Shown here piece after piece: positions 16,803-47,656 of a stretch of DNA of 64,000 bases; the stretch's first letter is position 1; each line of letters starts with the position of its first letter. The translations under genes were made by a program, and so were the position numbers. Under the pieces are notes generated by a model, which worked only from the letters and a program-made list of their open reading frames with translations, made no database searches and was not told where the DNA came from. The DNA comes from Knoellia subterranea KCTC 19937. GTDB lineage: Bacteria; Actinomycetota; Actinomycetes; Actinomycetales; Dermatophilaceae. Location of the stretch: contig NZ_AVPK01000011.1 of NCBI RefSeq assembly GCF_000768685.1, positions 1 to 64,000 of the forward strand, written 5' to 3'.

Positions 16803-17947
16803 TCAGGCGGGGGCTCCGGGAGCTGCGTAGCCGGTGGGCTCACCCGAGCCGAGGTCGACGATCGCGGCCACCGGGCCACCACCGTCGGGTCCCTGGTGGG
16901 CCGCCGACACGGAGACGAACACGGCGGGGTCGCCGGTCACCGACGCCGTGACACCGCCGACGCACGACTTGATCTGGCGGTGCCAGTGCACGTCGGAATC
17001 GTCAAGCATCGCGTTGCGCCGACCGCGGACCTGGCCGTCCTGGCTGACCTCGCACTTGAGGAAGACGTTGACGAGGCGGCCCTGGATGTCGGAGGTGTGC
17101 GGGCGCTCAGGGAGCTCGAGACCCGCGTCCTTGATGGCCGCCCAGATGCCGTCGGCGTCGAGGGCGTCGCGCATGACGGAGTGGCCGATGCGGTAGCGGC
17201 CGCCGACTCCGCGGGCGTTGCCAACGACGACGACCTGCGCCTGGTCGAGCTCGACGCCGGAGGAGCAGGACGCCACCGACGAGTAGAGGTCGCGGTTGTT
17301 CATGACGTCGGCATCGGTCGGCATCTCGATCTCGCCGAGGGCCACGGCGATGCCGAGGCCGGTCGTGCCGTTGGAGAGGTCCATCGATTCGTGCGTGTGG
17401 TGGGTCCAGACCTTCTGGCCGCGTGACTCGGCGTCGCGGATCGTGTGGATCGTCAGGAGCGGGTCTTCGTCTGGACGTAGTGCACGTCGGCCGGGTCGGT
17501 GATGCCGGCCCGCTCCATGGCGACCTTCACGGCGTCGGCGACCTTGGAGATCATGCCGGTGTAGCCAATCTCCTCGGGCTTGATCGGCTCACTCATGGCG
17601 AAGCCGACGGTGAGCCGCAGGTCGTCGCTCGGCTCGACCTTGTCCTCGGGGACCGTGGCGAAGATCGTGGCGTGCGGGCTGATGATGCCGTCCGTGCCAC
17701 CCGACCAGACGATCGGAACCTGCTTGACCTGGTCGGCGGGTGCGCCCTTGGCGACGAGGACTTCACGGAAGGCGCGGTCGGCGATGATGCGGGTGTAGTC
17801 GTTGACCCCACCGTTGCCCTCCGTCTTGCCGATGATGGCGATGACGCGGCGGGCTTCCATCACGCCGTCGTCGATGAGCTTGGCCAGCTCGGAGGCGTCG
17901 GCGACGCTGTGGATCGGAACCTTGCGGACCTCAATGGCTTCTGGCAC
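16803..17947 (-). pseudogene. Ring-opening amidohydrolase (barbiturase / cyanuric acid hydrolase family), frameshifted
   Basis: Two frames together encode one protein of about 380 residues. The N-terminal part (GTG 17947 to stop 17453) has [28 protein letters not shown] and ends [11 protein letters not shown]. The C-terminal part resumes in another frame with [14 protein letters not shown]...[12 protein letters not shown] and runs to 16803. All three Ser/Lys pairs of the three-fold repeated family seem present: Lys in GKTEG, Ser in WSGGTDG; Lys in VQTK, Ser in ASCSSG; Lys in FLKCE, Ser in VSAAHQGP. A missing base near 17455-17460 (AGCGGGTC on the plus strand) explains the break. The family opens cyclic imides or ureides such as barbiturate or cyanurate. 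It is followed upstream in the operon by carbamate kinase, 24 nt away. A sequencing error or a recent mutation are both possible. Confidence 0.8.
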
Positions 17948-17971: not shown

Positions 17972-18913
17972 TTAGTCCTCGGGACTGGTGTCGATGACCG
18001 TGCCGAACTCGCGCTCGACGGCATCGGTGATGTGGGCGAGCGACGTGATGATCGAGCGGCCACCGGACTCGGCGAACCGCATCGCGGCATCGACCTTGGG
18101 ACCCATCGAGCCGGACGTGAACTGACCGTCGGCGGCGTGCGCCTTCATCTGGGCGAGCGAGGTGAATCCGAGCGGTCGCTCGTCCGGGGTGCCGTAATCG
18201 ACCATGGCGTGGTCGACGTCGGTGGCGATGATGAGGATGTCGCACTCGAGGGCCCGGGCGAGCAGGGCGGCAGTGAGGTCTTTGTCGATGACGGCCTCGA
18301 CGCCGCGCAGCGTGCCGTCGGCGTCTCGGACCACCGGGATCCCGCCGCCGCCCGCGGCAACGACGACCTGGCCGGCGTCGATGAGCGCGCGGATCGCTGG
18401 GAGGTCGAGGACCTCGATCGGTTCCGGGGAGGCGACGACCCGTCGCCATCCCTTGTCGCCACGGTCCTCCCATTGCTGCCCGTGGTCGATCATCTGCTGC
18501 GCCTCGGCGGCCGGGAGGTAGCGGCCGATCGGCTTGGTCGGTTCGGCGAAGTGCGGGTCTGCGGCGTCGACGAGGGTGCGGGTCACGAGCGCTGCGACAG
18601 ACCTGTCCGCTCCGTGTCGGGCCAACGCCGGCTCGAGGGCGTCGAGGACGGTGAACCCGATGGTCCCCTGCGTCTGCGCACCGCACCAGTCGAGCGGGAC
18701 GGGCGGGACGACCGAGGCGGCCAGCTCGTTCTTGACGAGCAGGTTGCCCACCTGGGGCCCGTTGCCGTGGGTGAGGACGACGTCGTGGCCGGCAGCGACG
18801 AGTTCGGCGACGTGCTCCATGGCCTCGGTGATCGCCCGGACCTGGGCACCCGGGTCGGCCGACCCATCCGCGGAGGTCATGGCGTTGCCTCCCAGCGCGA
18901 CGAGAACGCGCAC
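17972..18913 (-). CDS. arcC: Carbamate kinase
   Basis: Converts carbamoyl phosphate and ADP to ATP, ammonia and CO2. It has 313 residues in the amino-acid kinase fold. VLVALGGNAM is the N-terminal phosphate loop and LTHGNGPQVGNLL is the family signature. VVAAGGGGIPVV is the nucleotide site, and VIDKDLTAALLA carries the conserved Lys-Asp. GSMGPKVDAAMRF lies near the C-terminus. GTG 18913 has GGGAGG upstream. It heads an operon with the ring-opening amidohydrolase. No arginine deiminase genes are nearby, so the carbamoyl phosphate most likely comes from ureide breakdown; the FdrA/DUF1116/DUF2877 genes 28 kb away would supply it. Confidence 0.92.
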   Translation of the reverse strand: MRVLVALGGNAMTSADGSADPGAQVRAITEAMEHVAELVAAGHDVVLTHGNGPQVGNLLVKNELAASVVPPVPLDWCGAQTQGTIGFTVLDALEPALARHGADRSVAALVTRTLVDAADPHFAEPTKPIGRYLPAAEAQQMIDHGQQWEDRGDKGWRRVVASPEPIEVLDLPAIRALIDAGQVVVAAGGGGIPVVRDADGTLRGVEAVIDKDLTAALLARALECDILIIATDVDHAMVDYGTPDERPLGFTSLAQMKAHAADGQFTSGSMGPKVDAAMRFAESGGRSIITSLAHITDAVEREFGTVIDTSPED

Positions 18914-20028: not shown

Positions 20029-21123
20029 TCACCTCGTGAGGTAGGCCGCCACTGCTGCCGTGCGCGCCGATCTCCCGTGGAGGTCGAGCTTGGCGTAGAC
20101 GTTGCTCAGGTGGCGTTCCACGGTCCGGCCACTGAGGACGAGTTCGCCGGCGATGGCGTCATTGTCGAGGCCGCGCGCGGCGAGGCCGAGAATCTCCTCC
20201 TCGCGTGGGGACAGCCTGTCGAGTGGGGAGGGATGAGTTGCTGAATTGTGTTGTGCGGCAGGAGGTTCGTCGAGGAAAGCGTCGAGCTCGCGGGTGAAGG
20301 TCTGCCACGCCGGCTCGTCCTCCAACACGATGTGGTTGTCGCTCTCCAGGGCAACGAGGCGGGCATCGGTGATGTGCGAAGCGAGGTAGCGGGCCTCGGA
20401 GAAGTTGTTCATGCGGTCCCCGGTGGAGTGGAGGACGAGGGTGGGTGCGGCGACCCGACCCAGGAGGTGCGACGCGTCGGCGACGAGCCTCTGTCGGCGA
20501 GCCGTCAGAGCGGTCGCGGTGTCGGTGGCATTACGCTGGAGTTCGTCGAGCCACACGTGCTGCTCCTCGGTGCCCTCCGGGATCATCAGCGAGGTGAAGA
20601 CGCGGCGGAACGCCGAGTCGGGCCGCGCCCAACCGACCTTGATGAGCGCGTCGAGGGCGTCGTTGAGCTCGGCATCCTTCGGATCCCGTCCCTGCTGGCC
20701 CGAATAGCTGCCGTAGAACGCGAGCCGCGAAACTCGCTCTGGATGGCGGACGGCATACGCAATGGCGATGGGTCCGCCCTGCGCCATGGCGAGAAGGTCG
20801 AACCGGTCCAGACCGGCGTCATCGGCAACCGCTTCGAGGTCGGCGAGGCGCAGTTCGGGGCTGTGGTCGGTGACGCCGCGGTCAGACAATCCGTGGCCCC
20901 GCTCGTCGAACCTGACAACGGTGTGCCGGGTTCCCCAGAAGGTCAGGTAGTGCCGCCAGACCGGTGAGGACCAGTCGTATTGCAGGTGGCTCAACCAACA
21001 CGCGTCGACGAGCAGGGGCGGGCCGGACCCGTGGACGGCATAGGCGATCTGCACACCGTCGACCGACCGCGTGAATCGGATGTCCTGCCGCGGTGTCGGA
21101 GGAGCCTGCCGGTCAGAGACCAC
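20029..21123 (-). CDS. LuxR-type regulator fused to an alpha/beta-hydrolase domain lacking the nucleophile Ser
   Basis: A 364-residue two-domain protein. Residues 15-280 are an alpha/beta-hydrolase fold (VDGVQIAYAVHGSGPPLL, FDERGHGLSD). The nucleophile elbow should read G-x-S-x-G but reads A-M-A-Q-G (LLAMAQGGPIAIAYA), so catalytic Ser is replaced by Ala. The acid Asp (HSTGDRMNNF) and the His (SDNHIVLEDE) remain. Residues 300-364 are a LuxR helix-turn-helix (LSPREEEILGLAARGL...SGRTVERHLSNVYAKL). The hydrolase part is therefore likely a ligand sensor. GTG 21123 overlaps the upstream carboxyltransferase gene by 11 nt, implying coupling to the CoA-transferase operon, its probable target. Confidence 0.85.
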   Translation of the reverse strand: MVSDRQAPPTPRQDIRFTRSVDGVQIAYAVHGSGPPLLVDACWLSHLQYDWSSPVWRHYLTFWGTRHTVVRFDERGHGLSDRGVTDHSPELRLADLEAVADDAGLDRFDLLAMAQGGPIAIAYAVRHPERVSRLAFYGSYSGQQGRDPKDAELNDALDALIKVGWARPDSAFRRVFTSLMIPEGTEEQHVWLDELQRNATDTATALTARRQRLVADASHLLGRVAAPTLVLHSTGDRMNNFSEARYLASHITDARLVALESDNHIVLEDEPAWQTFTRELDAFLDEPPAAQHNSATHPSPLDRLSPREEEILGLAARGLDNDAIAGELVLSGRTVERHLSNVYAKLDLHGRSARTAAVAAYLTR

Positions 21124-22642
21124 CCTTCATCGTAGATTTTCCGGCCCGTCCGAGGAGGCGGTATCGAGAGTGTCGTGCGGCGAGGCGCTCCATTCGCTCG
21201 AGCGTGGAGAGGTCCGCGAGTTCGTGGCGGATCGCCTGGGCCATGCGTCGGCAGAACTCCTCCGGCTCCTGCGAGGCGTCCGGGTGCTCGGCGACGATGC
21301 GATCGATGATGCCGTCCTCGAGGAGATCGAGGGAGCGGACGCGCTGGCGCTCGGCGAGTTCGGGAGCGCGGTCGGGGGTGCGGTAGAGGATCGCCGAGGC
21401 GCCCTCGGGTGGGAGCGGCGACAGCCACGAGTGCTGGGCGCTGATGACGCGGTCCGCGGGCATGAGTGCGAGGGCGCCACCACCCGTGCCCTGACCGAGA
21501 AGGACGCAGACGGTGGGGACGTCAAGGACGACGAGGTCGGCGAGGCAGCGTGCGATCTCCCCGGCCATGCCGCCCTCCTCGGCCTCCTTGGACAGTGCTG
21601 CGCCGGCGGTGTCGATGATGCTCACGAGTGGGAGGTTGAGCTCGGTGGCGAGCTTCATGCCGCGGCGGGCGACGCGCAGGCCCGACGGGCCGAGCGGTGC
21701 CTCGGTCTGCTCTCCACGACGGTCCTGGCCGAGGACGACGCACGGTGTGCCCTCGAAGCGGGCCAGGGCGAGGAAGAGGGAGGAGTCCCACTCGCCCGCT
21801 CCGGTCCCGAAGAGCGGGAGGACGTCGGTGGCGCCGAGCTTGAGCAGAGCGCGCACTCCCGGACGAGAAGGCTTGCGGGACAGCAGGATCGAATCCCACG
21901 CGGGGATGTCCGGTAGCGGCTCGCGCGGCACGTCGGGCGCCGGTGTCGAGTCGTGCGGGGCGAGGACGAGGTCGAGGAAGCGGGCCGCCGTCTGGGTGAG
22001 GAGTTCGACGGGAAGAACCGCGTCGAGCAGGCCGTGGGCGAAGAGGTTCTCGGCCGTCTGGACCCCCTCGGGGAAGGGCTGCCCGTAGAGCGCTTCATAG
22101 ACGCGGGCTCCGAGGAAGCCGATCGTCGCTCCCGGCTCGCCGACCGTCACGTGGCCGGTCGAACCCCATGACGCGAAGACGCCACCGGTGGTGGGGTGGC
22201 GCAGGTAGGTGATGTAGGGCAGGTGCTCCTGCTTGTAGGCCGCCACCGCCGCCGAGATCTTCACCATCGTGACGAACGCAGGCGTGCCCTCCTGCATGCG
22301 CGTGCCACCCGATGCGGGGGCCGCGAAGAGGGGCAGCCGCTCCTGCGTCGCCCGCTCGAAGGCCAGGACGATGCGCTCGGCCGCCGCGACGCCGATGGAG
22401 CCGGCGAGGAAGCGGAACTCACCGGCGATGACAGCGACCCGGTGGCCGTTGATCGTGCCCTCGCCGGTGACGATCGACTCGTCAGTGCCGGCCTTCTCGG
22501 CAGCGGCGGCGAGCTCAACGGCATACGAGCTGCCCTCCTCGGCCACCGCGAGAGGGGTGGTGTCCCAGGACTGCCACGACCCGTCGTCGAGGACGGCGGC
22601 AATGAGCTCACTGGACGTGGGGCGGTTGGGCTTGTCGCTCAC
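21113..22642 (-). CDS. Acyl-CoA carboxylase carboxyltransferase (fused beta/alpha halves)
   Basis: A 509-residue protein of the crotonase-superfamily carboxyltransferases. The N-half resembles AccD: AAPASGGTRMQEGT and HPTTGGVFASWGSTGHV form the oxyanion and acyl-CoA sites. There is no zinc ribbon. The C-half resembles AccA: PLVSIIDTAGAALSKEAEEGGMAGEIAR and LLGQGTGGGALALMPADRV. Such proteins carboxylate acyl-CoA using biotin, or work in reverse as decarboxylases. No biotin carboxylase or carrier gene is nearby, so partners would be elsewhere. It overlaps the CoA-transferase gene by 4 nt (GTGA), so both probably act on one CoA thioester. Substrate unknown. Confidence 0.8.
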   Translation of the reverse strand: MSDKPNRPTSSELIAAVLDDGSWQSWDTTPLAVAEEGSSYAVELAAAAEKAGTDESIVTGEGTINGHRVAVIAGEFRFLAGSIGVAAAERIVLAFERATQERLPLFAAPASGGTRMQEGTPAFVTMVKISAAVAAYKQEHLPYITYLRHPTTGGVFASWGSTGHVTVGEPGATIGFLGARVYEALYGQPFPEGVQTAENLFAHGLLDAVLPVELLTQTAARFLDLVLAPHDSTPAPDVPREPLPDIPAWDSILLSRKPSRPGVRALLKLGATDVLPLFGTGAGEWDSSLFLALARFEGTPCVVLGQDRRGEQTEAPLGPSGLRVARRGMKLATELNLPLVSIIDTAGAALSKEAEEGGMAGEIARCLADLVVLDVPTVCVLLGQGTGGGALALMPADRVISAQHSWLSPLPPEGASAILYRTPDRAPELAERQRVRSLDLLEDGIIDRIVAEHPDASQEPEEFCRRMAQAIRHELADLSTLERMERLAARHSRYRLLGRAGKSTMKGGL

Positions 22643-23814
22643 TCGGTGTCCTCCTCCGCGAGCCAGGCGCGGATGCTGTCGTTGTGCTGGCCGAGAGCGG
22701 GCGGTGCCAGGTGCTCCTCGCGACCTCCGGCAAAAGCGTTGTCGCCCAGCCGAATCGGTGGTCCCGGGATCTCGATCGACCCGAGGACCGGGTGGTCGAT
22801 GTCGAGCACGAGCCCCTGAGAGCGGGTCTGGTCCCAGTCGTAGACCCGGTCGATCGTGCGCACCTCTCCGGAGGGAACGCCGAGCTCGGCGAGACGGGGG
22901 AGGAGGTCGTCCAGACGCCACGTGGAGAAGGCCTCGTTGAGGGTGGCGATGACGTCGTCGCGGTGGGCCATGCGCTCCCGGTTCGTGGCCATGCCGGGCG
23001 CGGCCGGGTCGATGCCGAAGCCCTCCGCGAGCTTGACCCACAACGCCTCGCTGCCGCACGCGACCTGGACATCGCCGTCGGCGCAGTGGAACAGGCCATA
23101 GGGGGTGATGCTCGGGTGGTGGTTGCCCTGGGCGCGACCCACCTGGCCCGCCACGGTGTAGGCCGTGCCATGCATGGCGTGCGACGCGACGACGGCCGCA
23201 AGCAGGCTCGTTCGCACCACCTGACCGCGTCCCGTTGTCGTGCGCTCGTGAAGGGCGGAGACGATGCCGAACGCGCCGTACATCCCCGCGAGGAGGTCGC
23301 CGATGGGCACGCCCACGCGCTGGGGGTCGTCCGGCGCGGAGCCGGTCAGTGACATGAGCCCGGCCTCGCCCTGGGCGATCTGGTCGTATCCCGCGCGACC
23401 TCCTTGCGGCCCGTCATGGCCGAAGCCACTGATGGACAGGACGACGAGGCGCGGGTTGAGGTCGTGCAGTGCGTCGTTGCCGAAGCCGAGCCGGTCCATG
23501 ACTCCCGGGCGGAAGTTCTCGATGAGGACGTCGGCGCGTCGGACGAGTCGCGTAAGGACATCGCGACCGTCGTCGGACTTCAGGTCGAGGGTGATCGACT
23601 CCTTGTTGCGGTTGGCGCTCAGGTAGTAGGTCGAGATGGGGTCGTCCTCGGGCCCGACGAAGGGCGGCCCCCACCCGCGCGTGTCGTCGCCGGCGCCGGG
23701 CGTCTCGACCTTGATGACGCGGGCGCCCATGTCGCCCAGCATCATTGCGGCGTGCGGCCCGGCGAGGGCGCGCGACAGGTCGACGACGACGATGTCCTCA
23801 AGGGGTCCGCTCAT
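22639..23814 (-). CDS. Class III CoA-transferase (CaiB/BaiF family)
   Basis: A 391-residue CoA-transferase. It has VVDLSRALAGPHAAMMLGDMGA and the catalytic Asp region in SANRNKESITLDLKS. IENFRPGVMDRLG and SISGFGHDGPQGGRAGYDQI are also typical of the fold. It moves CoA between carboxylic acids such as oxalate/formate or dicarboxylates. The first gene of a three-gene operon with the carboxyltransferase and the LuxR regulator. Its ATG lies 6 nt after a TAGGCT -10 box, so it is likely leaderless. The real substrate cannot be told from the sequence. Confidence 0.88.
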   Translation of the reverse strand: MSGPLEDIVVVDLSRALAGPHAAMMLGDMGARVIKVETPGAGDDTRGWGPPFVGPEDDPISTYYLSANRNKESITLDLKSDDGRDVLTRLVRRADVLIENFRPGVMDRLGFGNDALHDLNPRLVVLSISGFGHDGPQGGRAGYDQIAQGEAGLMSLTGSAPDDPQRVGVPIGDLLAGMYGAFGIVSALHERTTTGRGQVVRTSLLAAVVASHAMHGTAYTVAGQVGRAQGNHHPSITPYGLFHCADGDVQVACGSEALWVKLAEGFGIDPAAPGMATNRERMAHRDDVIATLNEAFSTWRLDDLLPRLAELGVPSGEVRTIDRVYDWDQTRSQGLVLDIDHPVLGSIEIPGPPIRLGDNAFAGGREEHLAPPALGQHNDSIRAWLAEEDTE

Positions 23815-23820
23815 GGATCG

Positions 23821-23826
23821 AGCCTA
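23821..23826 (-). promoter_or_regulatory. -10 box for the leaderless CoA-transferase operon
   Basis: TAGGCT on the minus strand ends 6 nt before ATG 23814. The region 23815-24010 to the divergent CHRD gene shows no other repeat or RNA fold. Confidence 0.55.
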
Positions 23827-26248: not shown

Positions 26249-28204
26249 TCAGAGCCAGTCGTACTCGCTGGCCTGCGCACCCTCGGCGAGTTGCGCATAG
26301 CCGGGTCCGCGGTCGAAGAACGGCTCGTCAGAACGCTCCTCGCGCAGCTGCGCACGCAAGGCCTCACTCGCCTCCACGTCGACTGTCGCCGTGTCGCGGT
26401 CGCCGGACGCCACGACACCGTATGCCGTCCGCGCACCGTCGAGGGACACCTTGCCCCAACGCAGGTCGCGTTCGACCTCCTCGAGGGGGCGCTCGAGCGG
26501 GTCGCCCCAACCGCCGCCACCGGTCGTGCGGATCCGAATGACCTGACCCGCCTTGACCGCCTCGGCGTCGGCGAGGGCATCGACGATGCGTTCGTCCGGA
26601 CCACCGACGTCGATGGTGACCTCGAACGGCCGGCCGGCCTTGCCACCCTTGACGCCCCAGCAGGCGAGGATCGAACGGTCGGCGATGGACATGAAGTGCG
26701 CGTCCTCGAGCATCCGGATGTGCTTCTCGTAGCCGAGGCCGCCCCGATAGCGGCCCGCCCCACCGGAATCCACCGCGAGGCCGAGGCGCTCGACGATGAA
26801 CGGGAAGCGTGACTCGGTGAACTCGGTCGGCAGGTTCCGGGAGTCGGGCACGACGTGGATCGTGTCCTCGCCGTCGGCGTAGTAGCGCCCGCCGGACCCA
26901 CCGCCGAGCACCTCACGCATGAGGTAGTCGTTGCCGTCGCGGTCCTTGCCGTAGACGCCGGTGTAGCGGATCGTCTCCTGGTCCGCCGGCATCTGCCCGT
27001 CGACAGCCTTGGCGACGACACCGGCAAGGACACCGAGGAGTCGGAGGATGACGAACGTGCGCGCGTTCGTCGGTGCCGGGTAGATCGGTGTGAGGAGCGT
27101 GCCCTTCTCCGGGAAGCGCATCTCGATGAGCGGCACGATGCCCTCGTTGACGTCGAGTTCGGCCATGCGCTCGGGAGTGTCGGCGAGGTTGCGCAGGATG
27201 GGCGCGAGCCACTTCTTGAGGAAGTTGCCGCCGACGTAGTCGCCGCAGTGGTTGATCGGCCCCTTGGCCTGGGGTGCCGTGCCGGTGAAGTCGACGATGA
27301 GGCGGGCGCCACCAGGGAAGTTCGTCTCCGGGTCGGCCGGAGCGTCGTCGACCTTGGTGAGCGTGATGCGCTGTGTGTGCAACTTGGGCTCGTCGACGCC
27401 GTCGTGCTCGGCGTAGTCCTCCCACACGTAGGTTCCGGCGGGGATCTTGGACAGGATCTCGCGACGGTAGGTCTCGGTCGTGCTGTCGAGGATTGCGTCG
27501 AAGGCGGCCTCGATGTCGTCGCGGCCGTAGCGGGCGAAGAGGTCCGACAGACGGCGGGCGCCCATGAGGCAGGCGGAGCACTCGGCGTCGAGGTCCGCGG
27601 CCAGGCTGTCGGGCATGCGCGAGTTGCGGGTCATGATCCGCAGGGCCGCCTTGTTGGGAACACCCTTCTCCCACAGCTTGATCGGCGGGACGGAGAGGCC
27701 CTCCTCGTGGACGCTGGTCGCGTTGCTCGGCATGGAGCCGGGGACCGCGCCGCCGATGTCGTCGTGGTGCCCGAAGGCCTGCACGAAGGCAACGACCTTG
27801 CCGTCGTGGAAGACCGGGACCGTGACGCACAGGTCGGGCAGGTGGCCGATGCCGCCCTCGGACTCGTAGACGTCGTTGTGGAAGAAGACGTCGCCCTCGT
27901 GCATCTCGTCGAGCGGGTAGTCCCGCACGATCGGGTGCACGAGCGCCGAGTAGGAACGACCCGTGAGCTTGCGGAGCTGCCGGTCGTGGATGCCGGCGCG
28001 GAAGTCGTGCGCGTCGCGGATCATGGGGGAGCGCGAGGTGCGCGCGATGGCCGTCTCGACCTCCATCTCGACGCTCGCCAGGGTGCCCTGGACGATCTCG
28101 ACGAGGATGGGATCGACCTTGGTTCCGGCCGCGGTGAGCCGCTTTCCGTGCTCGTATGCCGTGGGGAGACCTGCGGGGTTCGGGGCGGCTTCGGTGGTGG
28201 TCAC
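26249..28204 (-). CDS. hyuB: Hydantoinase/oxoprolinase subunit B
   Basis: A 651-residue HyuB-type subunit. VDPILVEIVQGTLASVEMEVETAIARTS and DRQLRKLTGRSYSALVH are at the N-terminus. HEGDVFFHNDVYESEGGIGHLPDL and AFGHHDDIGGAVPGSMP follow and are typical metal- and substrate-site regions. ETIRYTG, LGGGSGGRYYADG and a late RTTGGGGWGDPLERP complete the pattern. With HyuA it forms an ATP-dependent ring-opening enzyme (N-methylhydantoinase, 5-oxoprolinase) or an acetone carboxylase-like enzyme. It overlaps hyuA by 4 nt (GTGA). No third small acetone carboxylase subunit is present, which favours a hydantoinase or oxoprolinase. Confidence 0.9.
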   Translation of the reverse strand: MTTTEAAPNPAGLPTAYEHGKRLTAAGTKVDPILVEIVQGTLASVEMEVETAIARTSRSPMIRDAHDFRAGIHDRQLRKLTGRSYSALVHPIVRDYPLDEMHEGDVFFHNDVYESEGGIGHLPDLCVTVPVFHDGKVVAFVQAFGHHDDIGGAVPGSMPSNATSVHEEGLSVPPIKLWEKGVPNKAALRIMTRNSRMPDSLAADLDAECSACLMGARRLSDLFARYGRDDIEAAFDAILDSTTETYRREILSKIPAGTYVWEDYAEHDGVDEPKLHTQRITLTKVDDAPADPETNFPGGARLIVDFTGTAPQAKGPINHCGDYVGGNFLKKWLAPILRNLADTPERMAELDVNEGIVPLIEMRFPEKGTLLTPIYPAPTNARTFVILRLLGVLAGVVAKAVDGQMPADQETIRYTGVYGKDRDGNDYLMREVLGGGSGGRYYADGEDTIHVVPDSRNLPTEFTESRFPFIVERLGLAVDSGGAGRYRGGLGYEKHIRMLEDAHFMSIADRSILACWGVKGGKAGRPFEVTIDVGGPDERIVDALADAEAVKAGQVIRIRTTGGGGWGDPLERPLEEVERDLRWGKVSLDGARTAYGVVASGDRDTATVDVEASEALRAQLREERSDEPFFDRGPGYAQLAEGAQASEYDWL

Positions 28205-30351
28205 TTCGCGTCCTCCTTGGTGATGACGAGGTTGCCGTAGGTGTCGACGCGGACGACGAAGCCCGGGTGGACGGGAACCGTGGAGCCGAACTCCTCGATG
28301 ATCGCCGGACCCTGGACCGTGTCCCCGGCCCGCAGGTCGGGTCGCCACCAGACTCCGGTCTCGACGTAGCCCTCGTCGGCGTCGAAGCACACCTTGCGGG
28401 TCGAGCGGCGGGCCCGGTCCTCGACGGAACCCCCTGTGGCAGAGGCGGATTCGTATTCCTGAAGCTCCGGTCGCGTGATCGGTCCGACGCCGGTGACGCG
28501 CAGGTTGACCCACTCGACCTGCTGGCTCGGATCGTTCCGGAAGTCGTAGCCGTAGAGCTGGTGGTGAGCGTCGTGGAACGCCTCGGCGACCTGACCGGCA
28601 TACGCGTCGTCGACAACCTGACCAGAGGGTGCGGTGACGCGAACCTCGTAGGCCTGGCCGAAGTAGCGCAGGTCCACCGTGCGGGTGAACTGGTGGGTGT
28701 CGGCCGCGAAGCCCTCCTTGGACAGGGCCGCCGCGGCCTTCTCCGTGAGGGAGGCAAAGGTCGCGTCGATGGCGGCGTGGTCGAGAGCGGACTGCTTGGC
28801 GACCTGGGTCTGGACGTAGTCGTTCTTCACGTCGACGGTGAGCAGGCCGAAGGCGCTGACGTTGCCCGGGTTCGGCGGGACGACGACGCCGGCGAGGTCG
28901 AGGATGTCGACGAGGCGGCAGGCGAGGAGCGACCCGGAACCACCGAACGTCGTGAGCATGAAGTCGCGGACGTCGAGTCCACGCTTCACCGACACCTGAC
29001 GCAGCGCGTTGGCCTGGTTCCACGCGGAGATCTCGAGAATGCCTGTGGCACACCGCTCGTAGTCGAGTCCGAGCTCAGCAGCGAGCTCCGTGATGCCCTT
29101 GCGGGCGGCGTCGACGTCGAGCGGGATCTCGCCGCCGAGCAGGTGCGGGGGGATGCGTCCGAGGGTGACGTGGGCGTCGGTGATCGTGGGCTGGGTCCCG
29201 CCCTTGCCGTAGCAGAGCGGGCCCGGGTCGGCGCCGGCCGACTGCGGTCCGACCTTGAGCGCCCCCTCGGGAGACACCCAGGCGATGGAGCCTCCGCCGG
29301 CACCCACGGTGACGACATCGATCATCGGGATCTTGCTGGGGTAGGCGCCGACCGTTCCCTCGGTCGTGAGCGTGGGCTCGCCGTCGAGGACGACGGAGAC
29401 GTCGGTGGACGTCCCGCCACCGTCACAGGTGAGGATCTTGTCGAAGCCGGCCTTCTGCGCAATGAGGGCCGCACCGAGTGCGCCGGCCGCCGGGCCGGAC
29501 ATCGTCGTCGTGATCGGCTGGTGCACGACCTCGTCCGCCGACAGGACACCGCCGTTGGACTTCATGATGTAGAACGGCAACGCCGTTGAGCTCGCTCCGC
29601 TCGCGCGCCCTCCCGTTTCGGCCAGTTCAGGCTCCTTCGTCGCGAACTGCCCGAGTCGCTCGTGGATGTTCGTGACGTAGCGGGACACGTTGGGCTTGAC
29701 CGCGGCGTCGACGAGGGTGGTCATCGACCGCTCGTACTCGCGATACTCGCGCAGCACCTCGCTCGAGATCGACACGATCGCCTCGGGGTGCTCGGCGCGC
29801 AGGATCTCGCGCATCCGCAACTCGTGGGCGTCGTTGGCGTAGGAGTGGAGGAAGCAGACGCCGATCGTCGTGATGCCCTGCTCCTTGAACCAGCGCGCTG
29901 CGGCGACGGCGCTCTCCTCGTCGAAGGGCCGGATCTCGTTGCCCTCGAAGTCCATGCGGCCGCCGACCGTCCGGACCGCGTCGGCCGACACGATGCGCGG
30001 CGGCTTGACCCAGAAGTAGGAGTTGCCGTAGCCGTCGGGCACCGCCTGGCGGGCGATCTCGAGCATGAACTCGTAGCCCTCGGTCGTGATGAAGCCGAGC
30101 TGCTCGACCTTGCCCTCGAGGAGCTTGTTCGTGGCGACGGTGGTGCCGTGGCAGACGGCGGTGATGTCGTCGCCGGACGCTTCCATGAGGCCGAGAACCT
30201 TCTCGATGCCGTTGATGAATCCGTCGGCGGGATTGCTGGGCGTGCTCGGCGTCTTCGTCGTGACGAGCTCCCCCGTGTCCTCGTCGAATGCCACCACGTC
30301 CGTGAACGTGCCGCCGGTGTCGATCCCGATCCTGATGCGTCGCTGAGCCAT
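28201..30351 (-). CDS. hyuA: Hydantoinase/oxoprolinase subunit A (ATP-binding)
   Basis: A 716-residue HyuA subunit with the ASKHA ATPase fold. RIGIDTGGTFTDVVAFDEDTG is the phosphate loop. CHGTTVATNKLLEG is a conserved loop, TCDGGGTSTDVSVV is the second phosphate loop, and TVGAGGGSIAWV and SAGADPGPLCYGKGG are typical. It phosphorylates the lactam carbonyl so that the ring can be opened by HyuB. First gene of hyuA-hyuB-NmrA. The ATG is 7 nt after a TTGAAT box. A CGGCATAC-family word (30370-30376, with the extended tail) and an inverted repeat lie in the 173-nt leader region. Confidence 0.9.
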   Translation of the reverse strand: MAQRRIRIGIDTGGTFTDVVAFDEDTGELVTTKTPSTPSNPADGFINGIEKVLGLMEASGDDITAVCHGTTVATNKLLEGKVEQLGFITTEGYEFMLEIARQAVPDGYGNSYFWVKPPRIVSADAVRTVGGRMDFEGNEIRPFDEESAVAAARWFKEQGITTIGVCFLHSYANDAHELRMREILRAEHPEAIVSISSEVLREYREYERSMTTLVDAAVKPNVSRYVTNIHERLGQFATKEPELAETGGRASGASSTALPFYIMKSNGGVLSADEVVHQPITTTMSGPAAGALGAALIAQKAGFDKILTCDGGGTSTDVSVVLDGEPTLTTEGTVGAYPSKIPMIDVVTVGAGGGSIAWVSPEGALKVGPQSAGADPGPLCYGKGGTQPTITDAHVTLGRIPPHLLGGEIPLDVDAARKGITELAAELGLDYERCATGILEISAWNQANALRQVSVKRGLDVRDFMLTTFGGSGSLLACRLVDILDLAGVVVPPNPGNVSAFGLLTVDVKNDYVQTQVAKQSALDHAAIDATFASLTEKAAAALSKEGFAADTHQFTRTVDLRYFGQAYEVRVTAPSGQVVDDAYAGQVAEAFHDAHHQLYGYDFRNDPSQQVEWVNLRVTGVGPITRPELQEYESASATGGSVEDRARRSTRKVCFDADEGYVETGVWWRPDLRAGDTVQGPAIIEEFGSTVPVHPGFVVRVDTYGNLVITKEDAK

Positions 30352-30524: not shown

Positions 30525-31457
30525 TCAGTCGCCTTCGGGGACGTGGTCCGGGCGCGGCCCGCCGTGGGGGAACGACGTCTTCGCCGGTGCCTCCAGCTCC
30601 TCGCGGTGGCGGCGGATGAGATCGAGGTTGCGGTCGCGCAGGTGGTCGAAGCCCTGGGCGATGTTCGAGCCCGGCGTGAGTGACGAGAGCGCCGTATCGG
30701 GGTCGAGCCGGGCCGTCACCCAACCCTCGTGCGAAGCCGCCTTGGCCACGATCGTCGCGTTGGGCGTGACGATGTGGCTGTTGCCGAAGTAGATGACGCC
30801 AGCGGGGTCGATCCCTGTCGCGTTGGCGCCGATGACGAAGACGTGGTTGTCGTAGGCGCGAGCCCTCGAGGTGAGCTCCCAGATGTCGGCGGAGCGCAGC
30901 AGCGCCGACGGCCGGCAGATGACCTCAGCACCCTGGACGGCCTGGATGCGCGACAGCTCCGGGTAGTCGCCGTCGAAGCAGATGATCATCCCGATGCGCC
31001 CAATTGCGGTGTCGCACAACGCAACCGTGTCACCAGGGGTCACCCAGCCACCGCCGGACACCGCCTCCGTGCAGAACGGGTGGGTCTTGCGATAGACACC
31101 CAGCAGGGCGCCGTCGGTGTCGCACAGGATCGAGGCGTTGTAGACCACGCCGCGCTCGGGGCCGCGTTCGTAGGTGCCCACGCACAGCACGATCCCGAGT
31201 TCCTCGGCGAGGTCCTGGAACGGCTGCGACATCGCGCCGGGCAACTCGCTCACGAGGTCCCACAACTGCTCGGTGGAGCAGTCCGGGGTGAATCCGGTCG
31301 TCGCCGACTCCGGCAGGACCACGAGTTCGGCGCCGGTCTCGGCGACACACCGGCGCACGAAGTCCACACAGCGCTCGATGTTGGCGTCGACGACCTGGGG
31401 GGTGAGCGAGCCGCGCACGGGCGCCACCTGGATCGCGGCCGCGGTGAAGGCGCGCAT
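30525..31457 (-). CDS. Carbon-nitrogen hydrolase (nitrilase superfamily amidase)
   Basis: A 310-residue member of the nitrilase superfamily. The Glu-Lys-Cys triad is visible: Glu in LVVLPESATTGF, Lys in LGVYRKTHPFCTE, Cys in IGMIICFDGDYPE. The family includes N-carbamoyl-amino-acid amidohydrolases, beta-ureidopropionase and aliphatic amidases. Its operon places it after a molybdenum hydroxylase and before the hydantoinase pair, so a role on an N-carbamoyl or amide intermediate from an opened ring is plausible. ATG 31457 shares one base with the upstream stop. The exact substrate is not readable. Confidence 0.85.
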   Translation of the reverse strand: MRAFTAAAIQVAPVRGSLTPQVVDANIERCVDFVRRCVAETGAELVVLPESATTGFTPDCSTEQLWDLVSELPGAMSQPFQDLAEELGIVLCVGTYERGPERGVVYNASILCDTDGALLGVYRKTHPFCTEAVSGGGWVTPGDTVALCDTAIGRIGMIICFDGDYPELSRIQAVQGAEVICRPSALLRSADIWELTSRARAYDNHVFVIGANATGIDPAGVIYFGNSHIVTPNATIVAKAASHEGWVTARLDPDTALSSLTPGSNIAQGFDHLRDRNLDLIRRHREELEAPAKTSFPHGGPRPDHVPEGD

Positions 31458-32128
31458 CAGCGACCTCCGATGAGCCAGCCGACGACGACGCCGACGAGGG
31501 CGACCCCGGCACCGAACAGGGCACCCGGGACGAACCCCGGCCCGCTGGAGCCGGAGCCGGCAGCGGAAGCGGCCGACCCGGCATACACGCGCCCGGCTGT
31601 CTCTGCCGCGGCTCCCGTGGAGGAACCGGCCATTTCCCCTGCTTCGGGAGGCGAACCGGCGGCGCCGACCGGCGCTGCGGCCGCGCGTTCACCCGCGATG
31701 TCGGCGTCCAGCGCCGTGAACATCTGGCCGGCCATCTTGCGGGCGACCCCGGCGAGCATCCGTTGACCGACTCCGCCGATCGGACCACCGACGAGAGCGT
31801 CCGCCTCATAGCTGATCTGCGTCCCGCCTCCCTCAGCGGGAGCGAGATTGACGTCGACGGTCGTCGAGATCGTCCCCGGTGCACCTGCGCCGTCGGCCTT
31901 CATCGTGAAGCGGTCGGGTTCGGAGACGTCGGTGATGGCGACCTCGCCGTCGTAGGACCCCTTGATCGCGGCGACCCCGGCCATGACCGTCATCGCGTAG
32001 CGTCCGGGGGAGATCTCGCGCAACGACTGGCAGCCCGGGATGCTGCGGGCGAGGACGCCCGGGTCGTGAACCGCCGCCCACACCTGATCCGGGGACGCCT
32101 TCATCGTCGCGGTGCCGTTGATCTTCAT
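31457..32128 (-). CDS. CoxG-like SRPBCC protein with C-terminal membrane anchor
   Basis: A 223-residue CoxG-type protein. Residues 1-145 form the SRPBCC fold (MKINGTATMKASPDQVWAAV, ARSIPGCQSLREI, ISYEADALVGGPIGGVGQRM). An Ala/Ser/Gly-rich linker follows, then a C-terminal membrane helix (ALFGAGVALVGVVVGWLIGG). CoxG proteins recruit CO dehydrogenase and related molybdenum hydroxylases to the membrane, so it probably anchors the enzyme of the three upstream genes. Its start overlaps the large-subunit stop (GCATGA). Confidence 0.88.
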   Translation of the reverse strand: MKINGTATMKASPDQVWAAVHDPGVLARSIPGCQSLREISPGRYAMTVMAGVAAIKGSYDGEVAITDVSEPDRFTMKADGAGAPGTISTTVDVNLAPAEGGGTQISYEADALVGGPIGGVGQRMLAGVARKMAGQMFTALDADIAGERAAAAPVGAAGSPPEAGEMAGSSTGAAAETAGRVYAGSAASAAGSGSSGPGFVPGALFGAGVALVGVVVGWLIGGR

Positions 32129-34548
32129 GCGGACTCCTCGGTGGTGCTGGTCTGGCTGGTCGGGGATGCGCCTGCGTGCGCGTGCTGGCGCCTCAGGTCC
32201 CACAGTTCGGTCGGGCTGATCGGCATGGAACGGATCGGGAATCCCTCGGCGTCCTCGATCGCGGACGCGATGACCGCTGTGACCGGAATGGTGCCGGCCT
32301 CGCCAGCGCCCTTGATTCCCAACGGATTCAGCGGCGACGGTGTCTCGAGGTGGTCGGTCTCGATGTGCGGCACCTCGGAGGCATAGGGCATGAGGAAGTC
32401 CATGAACGAGGCGTTGAGCAACTGGCCGCTCTCGTCGTAGACCATCCGCTCGTAGAGGGCGCCGCCGATGCCCTGGGCGACTCCGCCGTGCACCTGTCCC
32501 TCGACGATCATCGGGTTGACGACGGTGCCGCAGTCGTGGATGACGCAGTAGCGCAGGATCCTGATCTCGGCCGTCACCGGGTCGGTCTCGACGATGGCCG
32601 CGTGCATGCCGTTGGCGAAGGTCGCCTGGGTGGGGGAGTAGAAGTCCTTGCCCTCGAGCCCTGGCTCGTCGTCATCGGCGACGGGAGGCTTGTCGGGGTC
32701 GAACGCGCCCGCGAATTGCGTTGCGGCTTTTGCTGATTCGTCGAAGGCGTAGCGCAACGGGTTGGACATGACCGCGACGGTCGAGAGGGCGATCGAGGCG
32801 TTGGGAGCGCCCTTGACGCTGATTGTGCCGTCCTCGATCTGGAGGTCGTCCTCGCTCACCTCGAGCGCGTCGGCTGCGATGCGCAGGGCCTTGGCGCGCA
32901 CGGCACGGGCGGCGAGTGCCACGGCGTTGCCGGACATCACGGCGCCGCGCGACGCGAACGTCCCCACGGCATACGGCATGCGCCGGGTGTCGCCGGTCGT
33001 GACGTGGACGTCGTCGATCGACACGCCGAGTTCGTCGGCGACGATCTGCGCGAGGATCGTCTGGTGGCCCTGCCCCTGGGTCGTGAGGCCGGTGGCGACG
33101 TTGACCCGTCCGCTCGTCTCGACATGGACGTGCCCACCTTCGTAGGGGCCGACACCCGTGCCCTCGACGTAGCAGCCGATGCCAAGGCCCACTTTGCGGC
33201 CCTGCGCTTCGGCTTCCTTCTTGTATGCCGCGAAGTCGTCCCAGCCCACGAGAGCCTTGAGCTTGGCCAGGCTTGCGGGAAAGTCACCGGAGTCGTACTT
33301 GAGCGGGCGACCGTCCTGGAAGAGCAGGCCCTGGTCGTAGGGCATCTCCTCCGGTTGGATGAAGTTGCGGGAGCGGACCTCGGCGCGGTCGATGCCGAGC
33401 TCGGCGGCGATGGCGTCCATCGTGCGCTCCATCGCGTAGCAGCCCTGCGGTCGCCCGGCGCCCCGATAGGGCGTCACGAGAACGGTGTTGGTGTACATCG
33501 ACCAGAACTCGACGCGATAGTTCTGTGGCTTGTAGGGGCCGAGCAGCTGGGTGGCCGTGATGATCGGGACGATGACGCCGTAGGGGAGGTAGGCGCCGTT
33601 GTCGTGCCAGAACTTCACGTCGAGGGCGAGGAGCCGCCCGTCGTCGTCGAAGCCGACGGTGACCTTCTGGAGCTGCCCACGTTCGTGGGCGCTCGAGGTG
33701 AAGTGCTCGCGTCGGTCCTCGGTCCACTTGACGTCGTGATCGAGTCGCCGGGCGGCCCACGGGACGAGGACCTCCTCTGGCCAGGGGTGCATGATCTTGA
33801 CGCCGAAGCCACCGCCCACGTCAGGGGCGATGCACTCGACCTGCGCGAGGGGGAGTTCGAGCTTGGCGGCGACGGCGGCGCGGACACCGGTGGACGTCTG
33901 GGTGGAGGAGTGGATGCGCATCCGCTGCTCGTCGGAGTCCCAGTGCGCGTGGACACCCTTGCCCTCCATGGGCATGCAGGCGCTGCGTTCGATCTCGAGG
34001 TCGAGGGTCAGGGTGTGCGGTGCGGCGGCCATCGCGGGTTCGACGTTCCCGACCTCCTGGAGGAGGTGCGCTGCGACGTTCCCGGGCGCGTCGTCGTGGA
34101 CGAGGTCGGAGCCGTCGCGCGAGGTGGCGATGCCGACGACAGGCGTGAGGAACTCGTAGGTGACGACGATGCGCTGGGCGGCGTCCTCGGCGATGTAGCG
34201 GTCCCGGGCGACGACCATGACGATGGCCTCGCCGACGTGGTTGACCTCGTCCTTGGCCAGGGCGTAGCCGGTGCGGCCGGCCTCGATCGACGGGTGGGGG
34301 ATGAGCAGTGGCAGGCGGTCGCCGGCCGGGCCGTCGAGGTCCTCGTGGGTGAAGACGGCGATGACTCCGTCGACGTCGACCGCGCCGTCCACGTCGATGT
34401 CGACGATGCGGGCGTGGGCGTGGGGGCTGCGCACGAAGGCGGCCTCCCAGGCGTCATGGCCGAGGTCGTCGACGTAGCGGCCGTTGCCGGTGACGAGGCG
34501 GGGGTCTTCTTTGCGCTTGACGGGCGCGCCGAACTGGCGGGTGGTCAC
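32125..34548 (-). CDS. Molybdenum hydroxylase large (molybdopterin-binding) subunit, xanthine dehydrogenase family
   Basis: An 807-residue Mo-cofactor subunit. The order of blocks is GAPVKRKEDPRLVTGNGRYVDD, the QVECIAPDVGGGFGVK loop, VTPYRGAGRPQGCYAMER, TTQGQGHQTILAQ and the active-site Glu in GIKGAGEAGTI. The loop PYRGAGRPQ differs from the AYxCSFR loop of true (form I) CO dehydrogenase, so this is a form II-type enzyme oxidising an N-heterocycle or aldehyde. With its 2Fe-2S and FAD subunits it makes a full enzyme. GTG 34548 overlaps the small-subunit stop by 4 nt. The neighbouring NCS2 permease suggests a purine, pyrimidine or similar ring as substrate. Confidence 0.92.
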   Translation of the reverse strand: MTTRQFGAPVKRKEDPRLVTGNGRYVDDLGHDAWEAAFVRSPHAHARIVDIDVDGAVDVDGVIAVFTHEDLDGPAGDRLPLLIPHPSIEAGRTGYALAKDEVNHVGEAIVMVVARDRYIAEDAAQRIVVTYEFLTPVVGIATSRDGSDLVHDDAPGNVAAHLLQEVGNVEPAMAAAPHTLTLDLEIERSACMPMEGKGVHAHWDSDEQRMRIHSSTQTSTGVRAAVAAKLELPLAQVECIAPDVGGGFGVKIMHPWPEEVLVPWAARRLDHDVKWTEDRREHFTSSAHERGQLQKVTVGFDDDGRLLALDVKFWHDNGAYLPYGVIVPIITATQLLGPYKPQNYRVEFWSMYTNTVLVTPYRGAGRPQGCYAMERTMDAIAAELGIDRAEVRSRNFIQPEEMPYDQGLLFQDGRPLKYDSGDFPASLAKLKALVGWDDFAAYKKEAEAQGRKVGLGIGCYVEGTGVGPYEGGHVHVETSGRVNVATGLTTQGQGHQTILAQIVADELGVSIDDVHVTTGDTRRMPYAVGTFASRGAVMSGNAVALAARAVRAKALRIAADALEVSEDDLQIEDGTISVKGAPNASIALSTVAVMSNPLRYAFDESAKAATQFAGAFDPDKPPVADDDEPGLEGKDFYSPTQATFANGMHAAIVETDPVTAEIRILRYCVIHDCGTVVNPMIVEGQVHGGVAQGIGGALYERMVYDESGQLLNASFMDFLMPYASEVPHIETDHLETPSPLNPLGIKGAGEAGTIPVTAVIASAIEDAEGFPIRSMPISPTELWDLRRQHAHAGASPTSQTSTTEESA

Positions 34549-35063
34549 GGTACGTCACCGCCCTCGGTCGCGCCTTGGCGGCGGATCTCGGCGGCGCGCA
34601 GGACGGCCTTGCAGATGTTCTGGTAGCCGGTGCAGCGGCAGAGGTTGCCGGAGATGGCCTCGCGCGCCTCGGCCTCGGTGGGGTCGGGGTTCTCCTCGAT
34701 GAATGCGGTGATCGTCGTGATGAATCCCGGTGTGCAGAACCCGCACTGGAGTCCGTGGCACTCGACGAAGGCCTGCTGCACGGGGCCCATGTCCTCCTGG
34801 GTGCCGAGGCCTTCGGTCGTGGTGATCTCGTGTCCCTGCGCGGACACGGCGAACATCAGGCAGGACCGCATGGGGTCGCCGTCGACGAGGACGGTGCACG
34901 CACCGCAGACGCCGTGCTCGCAGCCGACGTGGGTGCCGGTGAGCCGCAGGTCGTGGCGCAGGAAGTCGGAGAGAAGCCGTCGGGGCTCGACGGTGCGGGT
35001 GTGGGCGACGCCGTTGACGGTGAGCGTCACGGGCACCCGAAGGGTCTCGTCGATGGTGGTCAT
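34545..35063 (-). CDS. Molybdenum hydroxylase small (2Fe-2S) subunit
   Basis: A 172-residue iron-sulfur subunit. CEHGVCGAC and the following Cys (RSCLMF) bind the plant-type 2Fe-2S cluster. CGFCTPG and NLCRCTGYQNI bind the second, all-helical cluster. ATG 35063 is preferred over GTG 35066 because GGAGG then sits at a usable distance. It carries electrons from the Mo centre to the FAD subunit. Confidence 0.93.
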   Translation of the reverse strand: MTTIDETLRVPVTLTVNGVAHTRTVEPRRLLSDFLRHDLRLTGTHVGCEHGVCGACTVLVDGDPMRSCLMFAVSAQGHEITTTEGLGTQEDMGPVQQAFVECHGLQCGFCTPGFITTITAFIEENPDPTEAEAREAISGNLCRCTGYQNICKAVLRAAEIRRQGATEGGDVP

Positions 35064-35929
35064 CACGCCTCCTTCACGGCCGTGGCCAGCGCTCTGCGGG
35101 TGAGTTCGGCGGCGAGCATCCGGCGATAGTCACTGCTCGCATGGATGTCGGCCTCGGGCGCGATTCCGCTCTGCACGAGGTCCTCGACGGCGTCCCAGGT
35201 TGACGAGATCGACTGTCCCGCAACGGCTTCGGAGAGATCGATGACGACGGGCACGTCGGTGACGGACACGTATGCCGCTCGCGCGCGCTCCACGACCGCG
35301 TCACCTCCGTCTCCGCTCACGTCCACGGCGACAGCGACTCCGGCCAACGCGTAATCGCCGTGTCGTCGGGCCGACTCGAGGAACGCGGTGCGAGTCCCTG
35401 GGGTGAACCGGCCGAAGCGCACCGCCTCGAGCAGCTCATCGGCCTCGAGCACGGTCTGGAGCGGACCCTCGAAGAAGTCGGTGGCGGCGACCTCACGCCG
35501 ACCGCGCGGGCCGACGACCTCCATGACGGCGTTCGTGAGCACCGCGATCGAGGGCATCTCGCCGGAGGCGTCGGCGTGGGCGATCGAACCGACGGTCGTG
35601 CCGCGGTTCCTGATGGCCGGGTGGGCCACGTTCCGCAACGCCTGACGGAGAAGCGGCAGGACGGCATACGCGTCGTCGTTTCTCTCGAGCGCAGCGTGAC
35701 GGACGGTCGCGCCGACGCGGACGAAGTCGTCCGCGACGGTCACGGCGTCCAGACCGTCGACCCGGTTGATGTCGACGAGATGCGCCGGTTGGGCCAGGCG
35801 CATGTTGAGCACGGGGATGAGGCTCTGCCCCCCGGCGAGAACCTTGCCGTCGTGCCCCACTTCACCCAGGGTTGCGACGGTTTCGTCGAGGGTGCGGGGG
35901 GAGTGGTGGACGAACGGGGCGGGCTTCAC
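35063..35929 (-). CDS. Molybdenum hydroxylase medium (FAD-binding) subunit
   Basis: A 288-residue subunit of the CoxM/FAD_binding_5 family. It has LAGGQSLIPVLNMRLAQPAHLVDIN (FAD pyrophosphate loop), RNRGTTVGSIAHADASGEMP (second FAD loop) and TDFFEGPLQTVLEADELL. Starts at GTG 35929, 28 nt after the permease stop. It passes electrons to the final acceptor. Gene order M-S-L-G equals that of cox operons. Confidence 0.92.
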   Translation of the reverse strand: MKPAPFVHHSPRTLDETVATLGEVGHDGKVLAGGQSLIPVLNMRLAQPAHLVDINRVDGLDAVTVADDFVRVGATVRHAALERNDDAYAVLPLLRQALRNVAHPAIRNRGTTVGSIAHADASGEMPSIAVLTNAVMEVVGPRGRREVAATDFFEGPLQTVLEADELLEAVRFGRFTPGTRTAFLESARRHGDYALAGVAVAVDVSGDGGDAVVERARAAYVSVTDVPVVIDLSEAVAGQSISSTWDAVEDLVQSGIAPEADIHASSDYRRMLAAELTRRALATAVKEA

Positions 35930-46960: not shown

Positions 46961-47656
46961 GTGCAATCGAGAATCCCGGCTGCGGCGTCCCCCCTGGCGC
47001 GGGATCTCGTGGCGGGCGCGCACCGACGGGCCGTCGTGCTGGCCGCCTTCCCCACGGCCCTCTACCTCGGGTTTGAGGCGCACGCCGAGGTGCTGCCGGT
47101 CGTCACGAGCGATGCGCTCGTCCTGCCGACTGCCCTGCGCCTCGCCGCGTCCGGTCCGTTCGACTGGGGCGTGGCCGGTGGAGACGTCGTGACCGTGGGA
47201 GGTGGCGCGGTCGCATTGCCGAGCCGCGGCATACACGTCGTCAGGTCGTGGCGCCCCCGACGGGTCGCGACGGGCGCAGCCAACGCAACGCCGTTCGACT
47301 GGGCCCCGCTCCTCGCCGAGATCGGCCGCGGCGAGGGCCTCACGCCCCGGGCCGACGACGTCCTGTGCGGGGCCCTCCTCGCCGCCCGCGCCCGGGGAGT
47401 CGCCCGTCCGGAGGCGCTACCCGTGGAACGCACGACGAGCCTGTCGGCGTCCCTTCTCGTCGCCGCCCACGCCGGGTATGCCGTGTCCTCCGTCGTCGAC
47501 CACGTCACCCACGCTGTGGCCGGCTCACCCGAACGCGAGGTCACGCGCGAGTGCGTCCTCGCCATCGGCCACACCTCGGGCGCTGGTCTGCTCGAGGGGA
47601 TCGATCTCGTCCTGAACCATGTCAATAGCCCTGTGGCACAAGGAGTTTCATCGTGA
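46961..47656 (+). CDS. allH: DUF2877 protein (AllH-like carbamoyltransferase subunit)
   Basis: A 231-residue DUF2877 protein. The family block is GRGEGLTPRADDVLCGALLAA (residues 123-143), followed by a helical C-terminus ending GHTSGAGLLEGIDLVL. To my knowledge the Escherichia coli relatives FdrA, YlbE and YlbF were assigned to an oxamate carbamoyltransferase (AllF, AllG, AllH) of allantoin breakdown; YlbF is the DUF2877 member. Here the three genes are contiguous and overlapping, so this is very likely the third subunit. The GTG is probably read from a leaderless message. A rare ATA codon occurs here only because of a CGGCATAC word (47227). Confidence 0.75.
   Translation: MQSRIPAAASPLARDLVAGAHRRAVVLAAFPTALYLGFEAHAEVLPVVTSDALVLPTALRLAASGPFDWGVAGGDVVTVGGGAVALPSRGIHVVRSWRPRRVATGAANATPFDWAPLLAEIGRGEGLTPRADDVLCGALLAARARGVARPEALPVERTTSLSASLLVAAHAGYAVSSVVDHVTHAVAGSPEREVTRECVLAIGHTSGAGLLEGIDLVLNHVNSPVAQGVSS

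Follow-up and report, generated by a model that had tools for sequence, protein, structure and literature searches.

A CoA-transferase and carboxyltransferase gene pair proposed to convert malonate to acetyl-CoA beside barbiturate genes in Knoellia subterranea

A 64,000-nucleotide (nt) stretch of the Knoellia subterranea KCTC 19937 genome (hereafter the window, on the contig called C6 in the genome scans) contains two overlapping genes that encode a class III CoA-transferase (CoAT) and a fused AccD-like/AccA-like carboxyltransferase (CT). We propose that the two probably make up a malonate module, in which malonate would be converted to malonyl-CoA and then to acetyl-CoA without biotin. The genes are:

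22639-23814, minus strand: class III CoA-transferase CoAT, putative malonate CoA-transferase (PF02515, 391.8 bits; 391 amino acids (aa))
21113-22642, minus strand: fused carboxyltransferase CT, putative biotin-independent malonyl-CoA decarboxylase (TIGR00515 and PF03255/NF004344)

The two enzymes and their proposed chemistry

The initial annotation of this DNA had described a class III CoA-transferase overlapping a fused beta/alpha carboxyltransferase, and profile searches bear this out, the two reading frames sharing 4 nt. CoAT spans the whole CoA_transf_3 domain (PF02515 positions 1-366 of 366), and its nearest solved structures in the PDB are 4ed9, a CaiB/BaiF protein, and 9br6, a succinate-hydroxymethylglutarate CoA-transferase. 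Its residue Asp144, which we take to be the catalytic aspartate by comparison with formyl-CoA transferase, lies in a column that is Asp in 84 of 84 aligned rows (80 distinct). The NCBIfam equivalogs matched by CoAT all score under their cut-offs.

CT is a 509-aa protein with a GTG start, and both of its halves lie in a single frame: an AccD-like part at residues 10-226 (TIGR00515) and an AccA-like part at residues 245-498 (PF03255). The acetyl-CoA carboxylase models give 174.9 bits (cut-off 357) and 174.1 bits (cut-off 317), both short of what AccD and AccA require. The MdcD and MdcE models give 44.5 bits (cut-off 278) and 32.3 bits (cut-off 237), so far under their cut-offs that membership of the Mdc family was rejected. 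An AlphaFold model built from a 13-row alignment has a carboxyltransferase fold, with a mean predicted local distance difference test score (pLDDT) of 78 and a predicted template modelling score of 0.83; since pLDDT drops below 50 at residues 78-81, most of 110-120 and 153-155, partly within conserved motifs, the model supports the predicted fold only.

We infer the substrates, direction, catalysis, biotin independence and CoA donor of the pair from sequence and gene context. CoAT would transfer CoA from an acyl-CoA, probably acetyl-CoA, onto malonate, and CT would release CO2 from the malonyl-CoA so formed, leaving acetyl-CoA. The reaction would proceed without biotin between the AccD-like and AccA-like halves of CT, with an oxyanion hole at their interface holding the enolate. 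CT would then act like MdcDE, on CoA rather than on an acyl carrier protein. According to the accessible part of PMC5534430, MdcDE is a CT-like pair that decarboxylates malonyl-CoA in vitro without biotin, and in the MdcACDE system malonate is likewise activated as a thioester before this pair decarboxylates it. MdcACDE relies on an acyl carrier protein that bears a special prosthetic group, and its transferase, MdcA, belongs to class II, whereas the window has a class III CoA-transferase and a single fused CT chain.

The conversion proposed here is also that of the MatABC pathway, in which malonate is taken up by the carrier MatC, activated to malonyl-CoA by the ATP-dependent synthetase MatB and decarboxylated to acetyl-CoA by MatA. 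In relatives, a MatC-type carrier and a GntR-type regulator lie by CoAT-CT, which would appear to replace MatB (not itself searched for) and MatA. A search for malonyl-CoA decarboxylase (PF05292) was silent in the window's genome and equally silent in all 14 controls, which makes it uninformative. With the carboxyltransferase of acetyl-CoA carboxylase CT shares its fold, and it is 31% identical to the AccA chain 9m70_B over 266 columns; it differs from AccA/AccD in its beta/alpha fusion, in having no room for a zinc ribbon, in an altered AccA loop and in having no partner genes near.

Conserved neighbourhoods and co-occurrence

The nearby genes that would tie the pair to malonate are:

17453-17947, minus strand: barbiturase, N-terminal piece (PF09663 positions 1-158)
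16803-17384, minus strand: barbiturase, C-terminal piece (best match PDB 5hwe, E 9e-103; signature N/H/K/V/S)
17972-18913, minus strand: carbamate kinase (TIGR00746 341.5 bits, cut-off 358; NF009007 310 bits, cut-off 266)

A ring-opening amidohydrolase had been noted 3 kb away in the initial annotation; its family (PF09663) and a barbiturase signature are confirmed, and in this assembly it is frameshifted into two pieces. The accessible part of PMC3758960 gives the residues specific to barbiturase as N195, H321, K325, V345 and S/A346 (AtzD numbering). Measured against that list, the C-terminal piece reads N, H, K, V and S, all five barbiturase residues, and of 55 aligned rows, which include two duplicates, 54 have the full signature. 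An identity as cyanuric acid hydrolase was rejected because these residues are of the barbiturase type. Since the amidohydrolase carries the published signature, malonate is a sensible end product.

CoAT-CT adjoins barbiturase and carbamate kinase in Intrasporangiaceae, Streptosporangiaceae and Nocardioides, and the order CoxL-CoxG-amidase-HyuA-HyuB-CoAT-CT-carbamate kinase-barbiturase repeats in other genera (loci L043, L045 and L050). Once, in Nocardioides flavescens (L128), barbiturase stands between CoAT and CT. In Nocardioides speluncae the genes FdrA-AllG-CoAT-CT-HyuA-HyuB all point the same way, and neighbours from FdrA to CT overlap by 4 nt. The pair is thus kept beside barbiturase and carbamate kinase, or beside MatC, and not next to unrelated genes only. 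The suggestion that the pair decarboxylates malonyl-CoA, with malonate coming from barbiturate, draws support from these barbiturase, carbamate kinase and MatC neighbourhoods.

Three duplicate loci (L060, L061 and L152) were removed from the locus counts and retained among the 105 CT and 84 CoAT rows; L148 duplicates L115, giving a total of 52 barbiturase loci, not 53, and no gene calls were obtained for L149. The gene caller drew CT in 93 of 103 loci, on which the upstream and overlap counts rest, and left it uncalled in L059, L079, L106, L114, L117, L123, L126, L131, L132 and L137. Because tblastn shows CT and no CoAT in eight of these ten, the tblastn count, which excludes the window (n = 101), is the fairer one: 62 of these loci have CoAT no more than 1.5 kb from CT. 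By gene calls, CoAT is directly upstream of CT on the same strand in 56 of 93, with a 4-nt overlap in 32. Twenty of the 52 barbiturase loci were chosen for a missing or distant CT, and most of the rest for its presence, so the following counts are not random rates. Carbamate kinase is the next gene to barbiturase in 44 loci, CoAT lies within four genes of it in 28 and CT in 25; CoAT and CT occur together in 29, CoAT alone in 10, CT alone in 2 and neither in 11.

In an even sample of 394 genomes of the class, barbiturase (PF09663) occurs in 82, AllG in 88 and both in 75 (Fisher p 3.5e-58), and 40 of 48 barbiturase-AllG pairs on one contig lie within 60 kb. CT occurs in 136 genomes among the matches listed (167 when tallied at E <= 1e-60), 58 of which also have barbiturase (p 5e-14); among the same matches, 23 of 33 barbiturase-CT pairs on one contig lie within 20 kb. 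MatC_N was tallied from the 54 genomes with strong rows (82 have any match, 70 one over the cut-off), and of these 42 also have CT among the matches listed, with 28 of 33 same-contig pairs within 2.4 kb. MatC and barbiturase co-occur in just 19 genomes, with one pair within 20 kb, as expected if the two are alternative sources of malonate. The inter-gene distances are stronger evidence than the Fisher p-values. They also bear on the highly improbable reading that CoAT-CT acts on an unrelated dicarboxylic or branched acyl-CoA and adjoins the barbiturate genes by chance: CT homologues without CoAT do adjoin unrelated genes in Nocardioides and Rhodococcus, but the co-location repeats across several families at distances beyond chance.

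Within Knoellia, barbiturase and AllG are both present in eight of nine genomes, the window's own included, and both are missing from K. remsis (G002); barbiturase occupies a single frame in seven, two frames in the window and is absent from G002. In K. remsis, CoAT-CT sits with a GntR gene and MatC. In the tree, the CT of this species groups within the Knoellia set (9 rows; Shimodaira-Hasegawa-like approximate likelihood-ratio test 97) and is therefore the same gene (an ortholog). The simplest reading is that K. remsis lost barbiturase and AllG, and the CoAT-CT module seems to outlive the barbiturate route in the company of a malonate carrier. Since CoAT-CT stands beside MatC where barbiturase is missing, malonate is the likely substrate of CoAT, as judged from gene context.

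The same arrangement bears on the possibility that CoAT activates ureidomalonate or malonamate, the CoA ester then being split by CT, or by another enzyme, into acetyl-CoA and allophanate or a similar product. In L157, L166, L168 and L172, CoAT adjoins carbamate kinase-barbiturase without CT, as this would lead one to expect; the pairing of CoAT-CT with MatC in places that have no barbiturase points instead to free malonate, and amidase-type genes are already there for the amide bonds. We consider a ureidomalonate or malonamate ester quite improbable.

A compact CoxM-CoxS-CoxL-amidase-CoAT-CT run was also seen in L092, with no barbiturase or HyuAB at the locus, and perhaps serves a different heterocycle.

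Counter-evidence and biotin partners

Several observations weigh against a malonate module. In sequence, MdcD/MdcE are more distant from CT than the biotin-dependent AccD/AccA are, and the 50 fold matches listed for it include no MDC chain. The window's barbiturase is split over two reading frames. CoAT is missing within 1.5 kb by tblastn from 39 of the 101 CT loci, chiefly those of Nocardioides/Marmoricola, Rhodococcus and Actinomadura. Conversely, 10 of the 52 barbiturase loci have CoAT without CT and 24 of the 82 barbiturase genomes have no CT among the matches listed, so the route does not require CT. The relatives named here are the best 80 of 586 matches and are biased to close relatives, and the Fisher p-values are too small because they assume that genomes are independent. 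Finally, a small stand-alone protein on contig C10 bears the biotin-type motif ESMKMEIP, and a stand-alone carrier therefore cannot be called absent from the genome.

This last protein leads to the chief competing explanation, that CT is an ordinary biotin-dependent carboxyltransferase, served by the genome's fused biotin carboxylase-biotin carboxyl carrier protein (BC-BCCP) or by the small carrier, and makes malonyl-CoA or an alpha-carboxyacyl-CoA. Partners of biotin enzymes are commonly shared in Actinobacteria, and the best sequence relatives of CT are the AccD/AccA of biotin-dependent acetyl-CoA carboxylase. The initial annotation had seen no biotin carboxylase or carrier near the pair, and searches with Biotin_carb_C and Biotin_lipoyl agree, neither having a match on the window's contig. 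Over the whole genome (33 contigs totalling 3.57 Mb; completeness 99.99%), matches to Biotin_carb_C are confined to C32 and C1 and those to Biotin_lipoyl to C12, C32, C31, C1 and C10. One biotin carboxylase is the fused BC-BCCP (590 aa) on C32 and the second lies within a 1152-aa frame on C1; the weak biotin match on C1 near 67.2 kb lies in a 392-aa open reading frame without the ESMKMEIP motif. The genome also encodes four carboxyltransferases. Because the BC-BCCP and the small carrier-like protein exist, the missing biotin neighbour in itself proves little.

Other features speak against such a role. On its contig the BC-BCCP is accompanied by two full-length Carboxyl_trans proteins that differ in type from CT, and searches of the genome found no biotin carboxylase standing alone. 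An enzyme of synthesis would have little reason to be paired with CoAT and MatC. Moreover, all four aligned stand-alone AccA chains (two near-identical) have an NFG segment and a GEGGSGG loop. Neither occurs in any of 101 distinct CT proteins, of which 71 read G[EQ]GxGGG at the loop position and the other 30 depart from that pattern. The AccD model aligns only from its position 59, at CT residue 10, leaving the zinc-ribbon part unmatched, and none of the 105 CT rows has a CxxC in its first 60 residues. The missing loop, segment and CxxC fit a CT that may no longer serve biotin, short of proof. We therefore regard a biotin-dependent CT as unlikely and retain the malonate module.

The surrounding cluster and a possible oxidative pyrimidine route

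The remaining genes of interest in the window are:

20029-21123, minus strand: alpha/beta hydrolase-LuxR helix-turn-helix (HTH) fusion, accessory (PF00561 and PF00196)
26249-28204, minus strand: HyuB, hydantoinase B/oxoprolinase family (PF02538; conserved synteny)
28201-30351, minus strand: HyuA (PF01968/PF05378; conserved synteny)
30525-31457, minus strand: carbon-nitrogen hydrolase, amidase candidate (PF00795)
31457-32203, minus strand: CoxG-like protein (PF06240)
32125-34548, minus strand: CoxL-type molybdenum hydroxylase large subunit, uracil dehydrogenase candidate (NF040766 1535 bits; loop PYRGAGR)
34545-35066, minus strand: CoxS-type iron-sulfur subunit (profile match)
35063-35929, minus strand: CoxM-type FAD subunit (profile match)
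35958-37424, minus strand: NCS2 permease, closest model RutG, pyrimidine transport (TIGR03616 355 bits, cut-off 759)
46961-47656, plus strand: AllH-like subunit, oxamic transcarbamylase (PF11392 57.7 bits)
47653-49149, plus strand: AllF/FdrA-like subunit (NF004760 390 bits, cut-off 433; PF00549)
49146-50576, plus strand: AllG-like subunit (PF06545 317 bits)

We give an even chance to the proposal that the genes at 16.8-50.6 kb constitute a complete energy-saving oxidative pyrimidine pathway via AllFGH, carbamate kinase and CoAT-CT. The NCS2 permease would serve uptake, CoxLMS would oxidize uracil to barbiturate, and barbiturase would open barbiturate to ureidomalonate, from which cleavage of the acylurea would give malonate; in genomes without the barbiturate genes, a MatC carrier would import it instead. 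The cleavage may fall to an AllFGH-type transcarbamylase, which would convert ureidomalonate and phosphate to malonamate and carbamoyl phosphate; carbamate kinase would draw ATP from the latter, and an amidase would release malonate from malonamate.

The oxidative pyrimidine pathway with barbiturase was described by Soong et al. (2001, 2002), as cited in the accessible part of PMC3758960. The window resembles it in having a gene with the barbiturase signature, a molybdenum hydroxylase and an NCS2 permease. As known, the pathway ends with ureidomalonase, which yields urea and malonate, whereas the AllFGH-like and carbamate kinase genes of the window suggest a phosphorolytic step. We propose this step, together with carbamate kinase, because the AllFGH genes are present and urease alpha has no match in the genome (4 of 14 control genomes match), which is in line with an alternative to the urea route; the co-occurrence of AllG and barbiturase in 75 genomes likewise suggests a path from ureidomalonate through carbamoyl phosphate to ATP. 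The AllH, FdrA and AllG genes overlap, and carbamate kinase is some 28 kb off, beside barbiturase. In allantoin fermentation by E. coli, according to the accessible part of PMC11326118, AllFGH converts oxalurate and phosphate to oxamate and carbamoyl phosphate. The window holds the same three families and carbamate kinase, and the ureidomalonate proposed here is the homologue of oxalurate with one CH2 more.

If this proposal is true, a second substrate would be assigned to AllFGH, and the pathway would have a way around ureidomalonase and urea. Barbiturase is the only oxidative-pyrimidine gene named in those parts of the literature that are accessible, and the conserved cluster would supply candidates for the other steps as well as a new use of malonate; annotations such as 'carbon-monoxide dehydrogenase' and 'acetyl-CoA carboxylase' could probably be corrected in the Actinobacteria that bear it. 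No published description of the CoAT-CT module or cluster was found among titles and abstract openings, with subscription literature mostly outside the search, which falls short of proving novelty.

Form I carbon monoxide dehydrogenase carries AYxCSFR in one loop. The CoxL-type protein matches the aerobic CO dehydrogenase model NF040766 yet has PYRGAGR at that position, and is perhaps, on sequence grounds, a uracil dehydrogenase.

The carbon-nitrogen hydrolase position is occupied in L150, L151 and L162 by a gene of the Amidase family (PF01425). In the Actinomadura loci L111, L122 and L124 a divergent amidase-family gene directly adjoins CT without CoAT. An identity as malonamidase E2 is unsupported for the amidase of relatives, since the L111 member, the only one compared, matches it only at about 1e-20, with GatA, aryl acylamidase and biuret hydrolase all ranking ahead.

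Between the HyuB side and CoAT, L035, L036, L037, L039, L040 and L042 carry a deaminase of the dCMP/cytidine type (PF00383, one member scanned), which has no tblastn match in the window.

The gene behind the pair, which the initial annotation had fairly called 'sensor-like LuxR', fuses an alpha/beta-hydrolase domain to a LuxR-type HTH. It recurs in five loci (one a duplicate), those of the window and three other Knoellia among the nine genomes, and was set aside with a methyltransferase as accessory.

Between the two halves of the cluster lie a CitMHS-type transporter (44086-45408), the only MatC-like candidate in the window, with a marginal MatC_N match of 22.5 bits (23.1 with neighbours; cut-off 23), and a PucR-type regulator (45498-46925).

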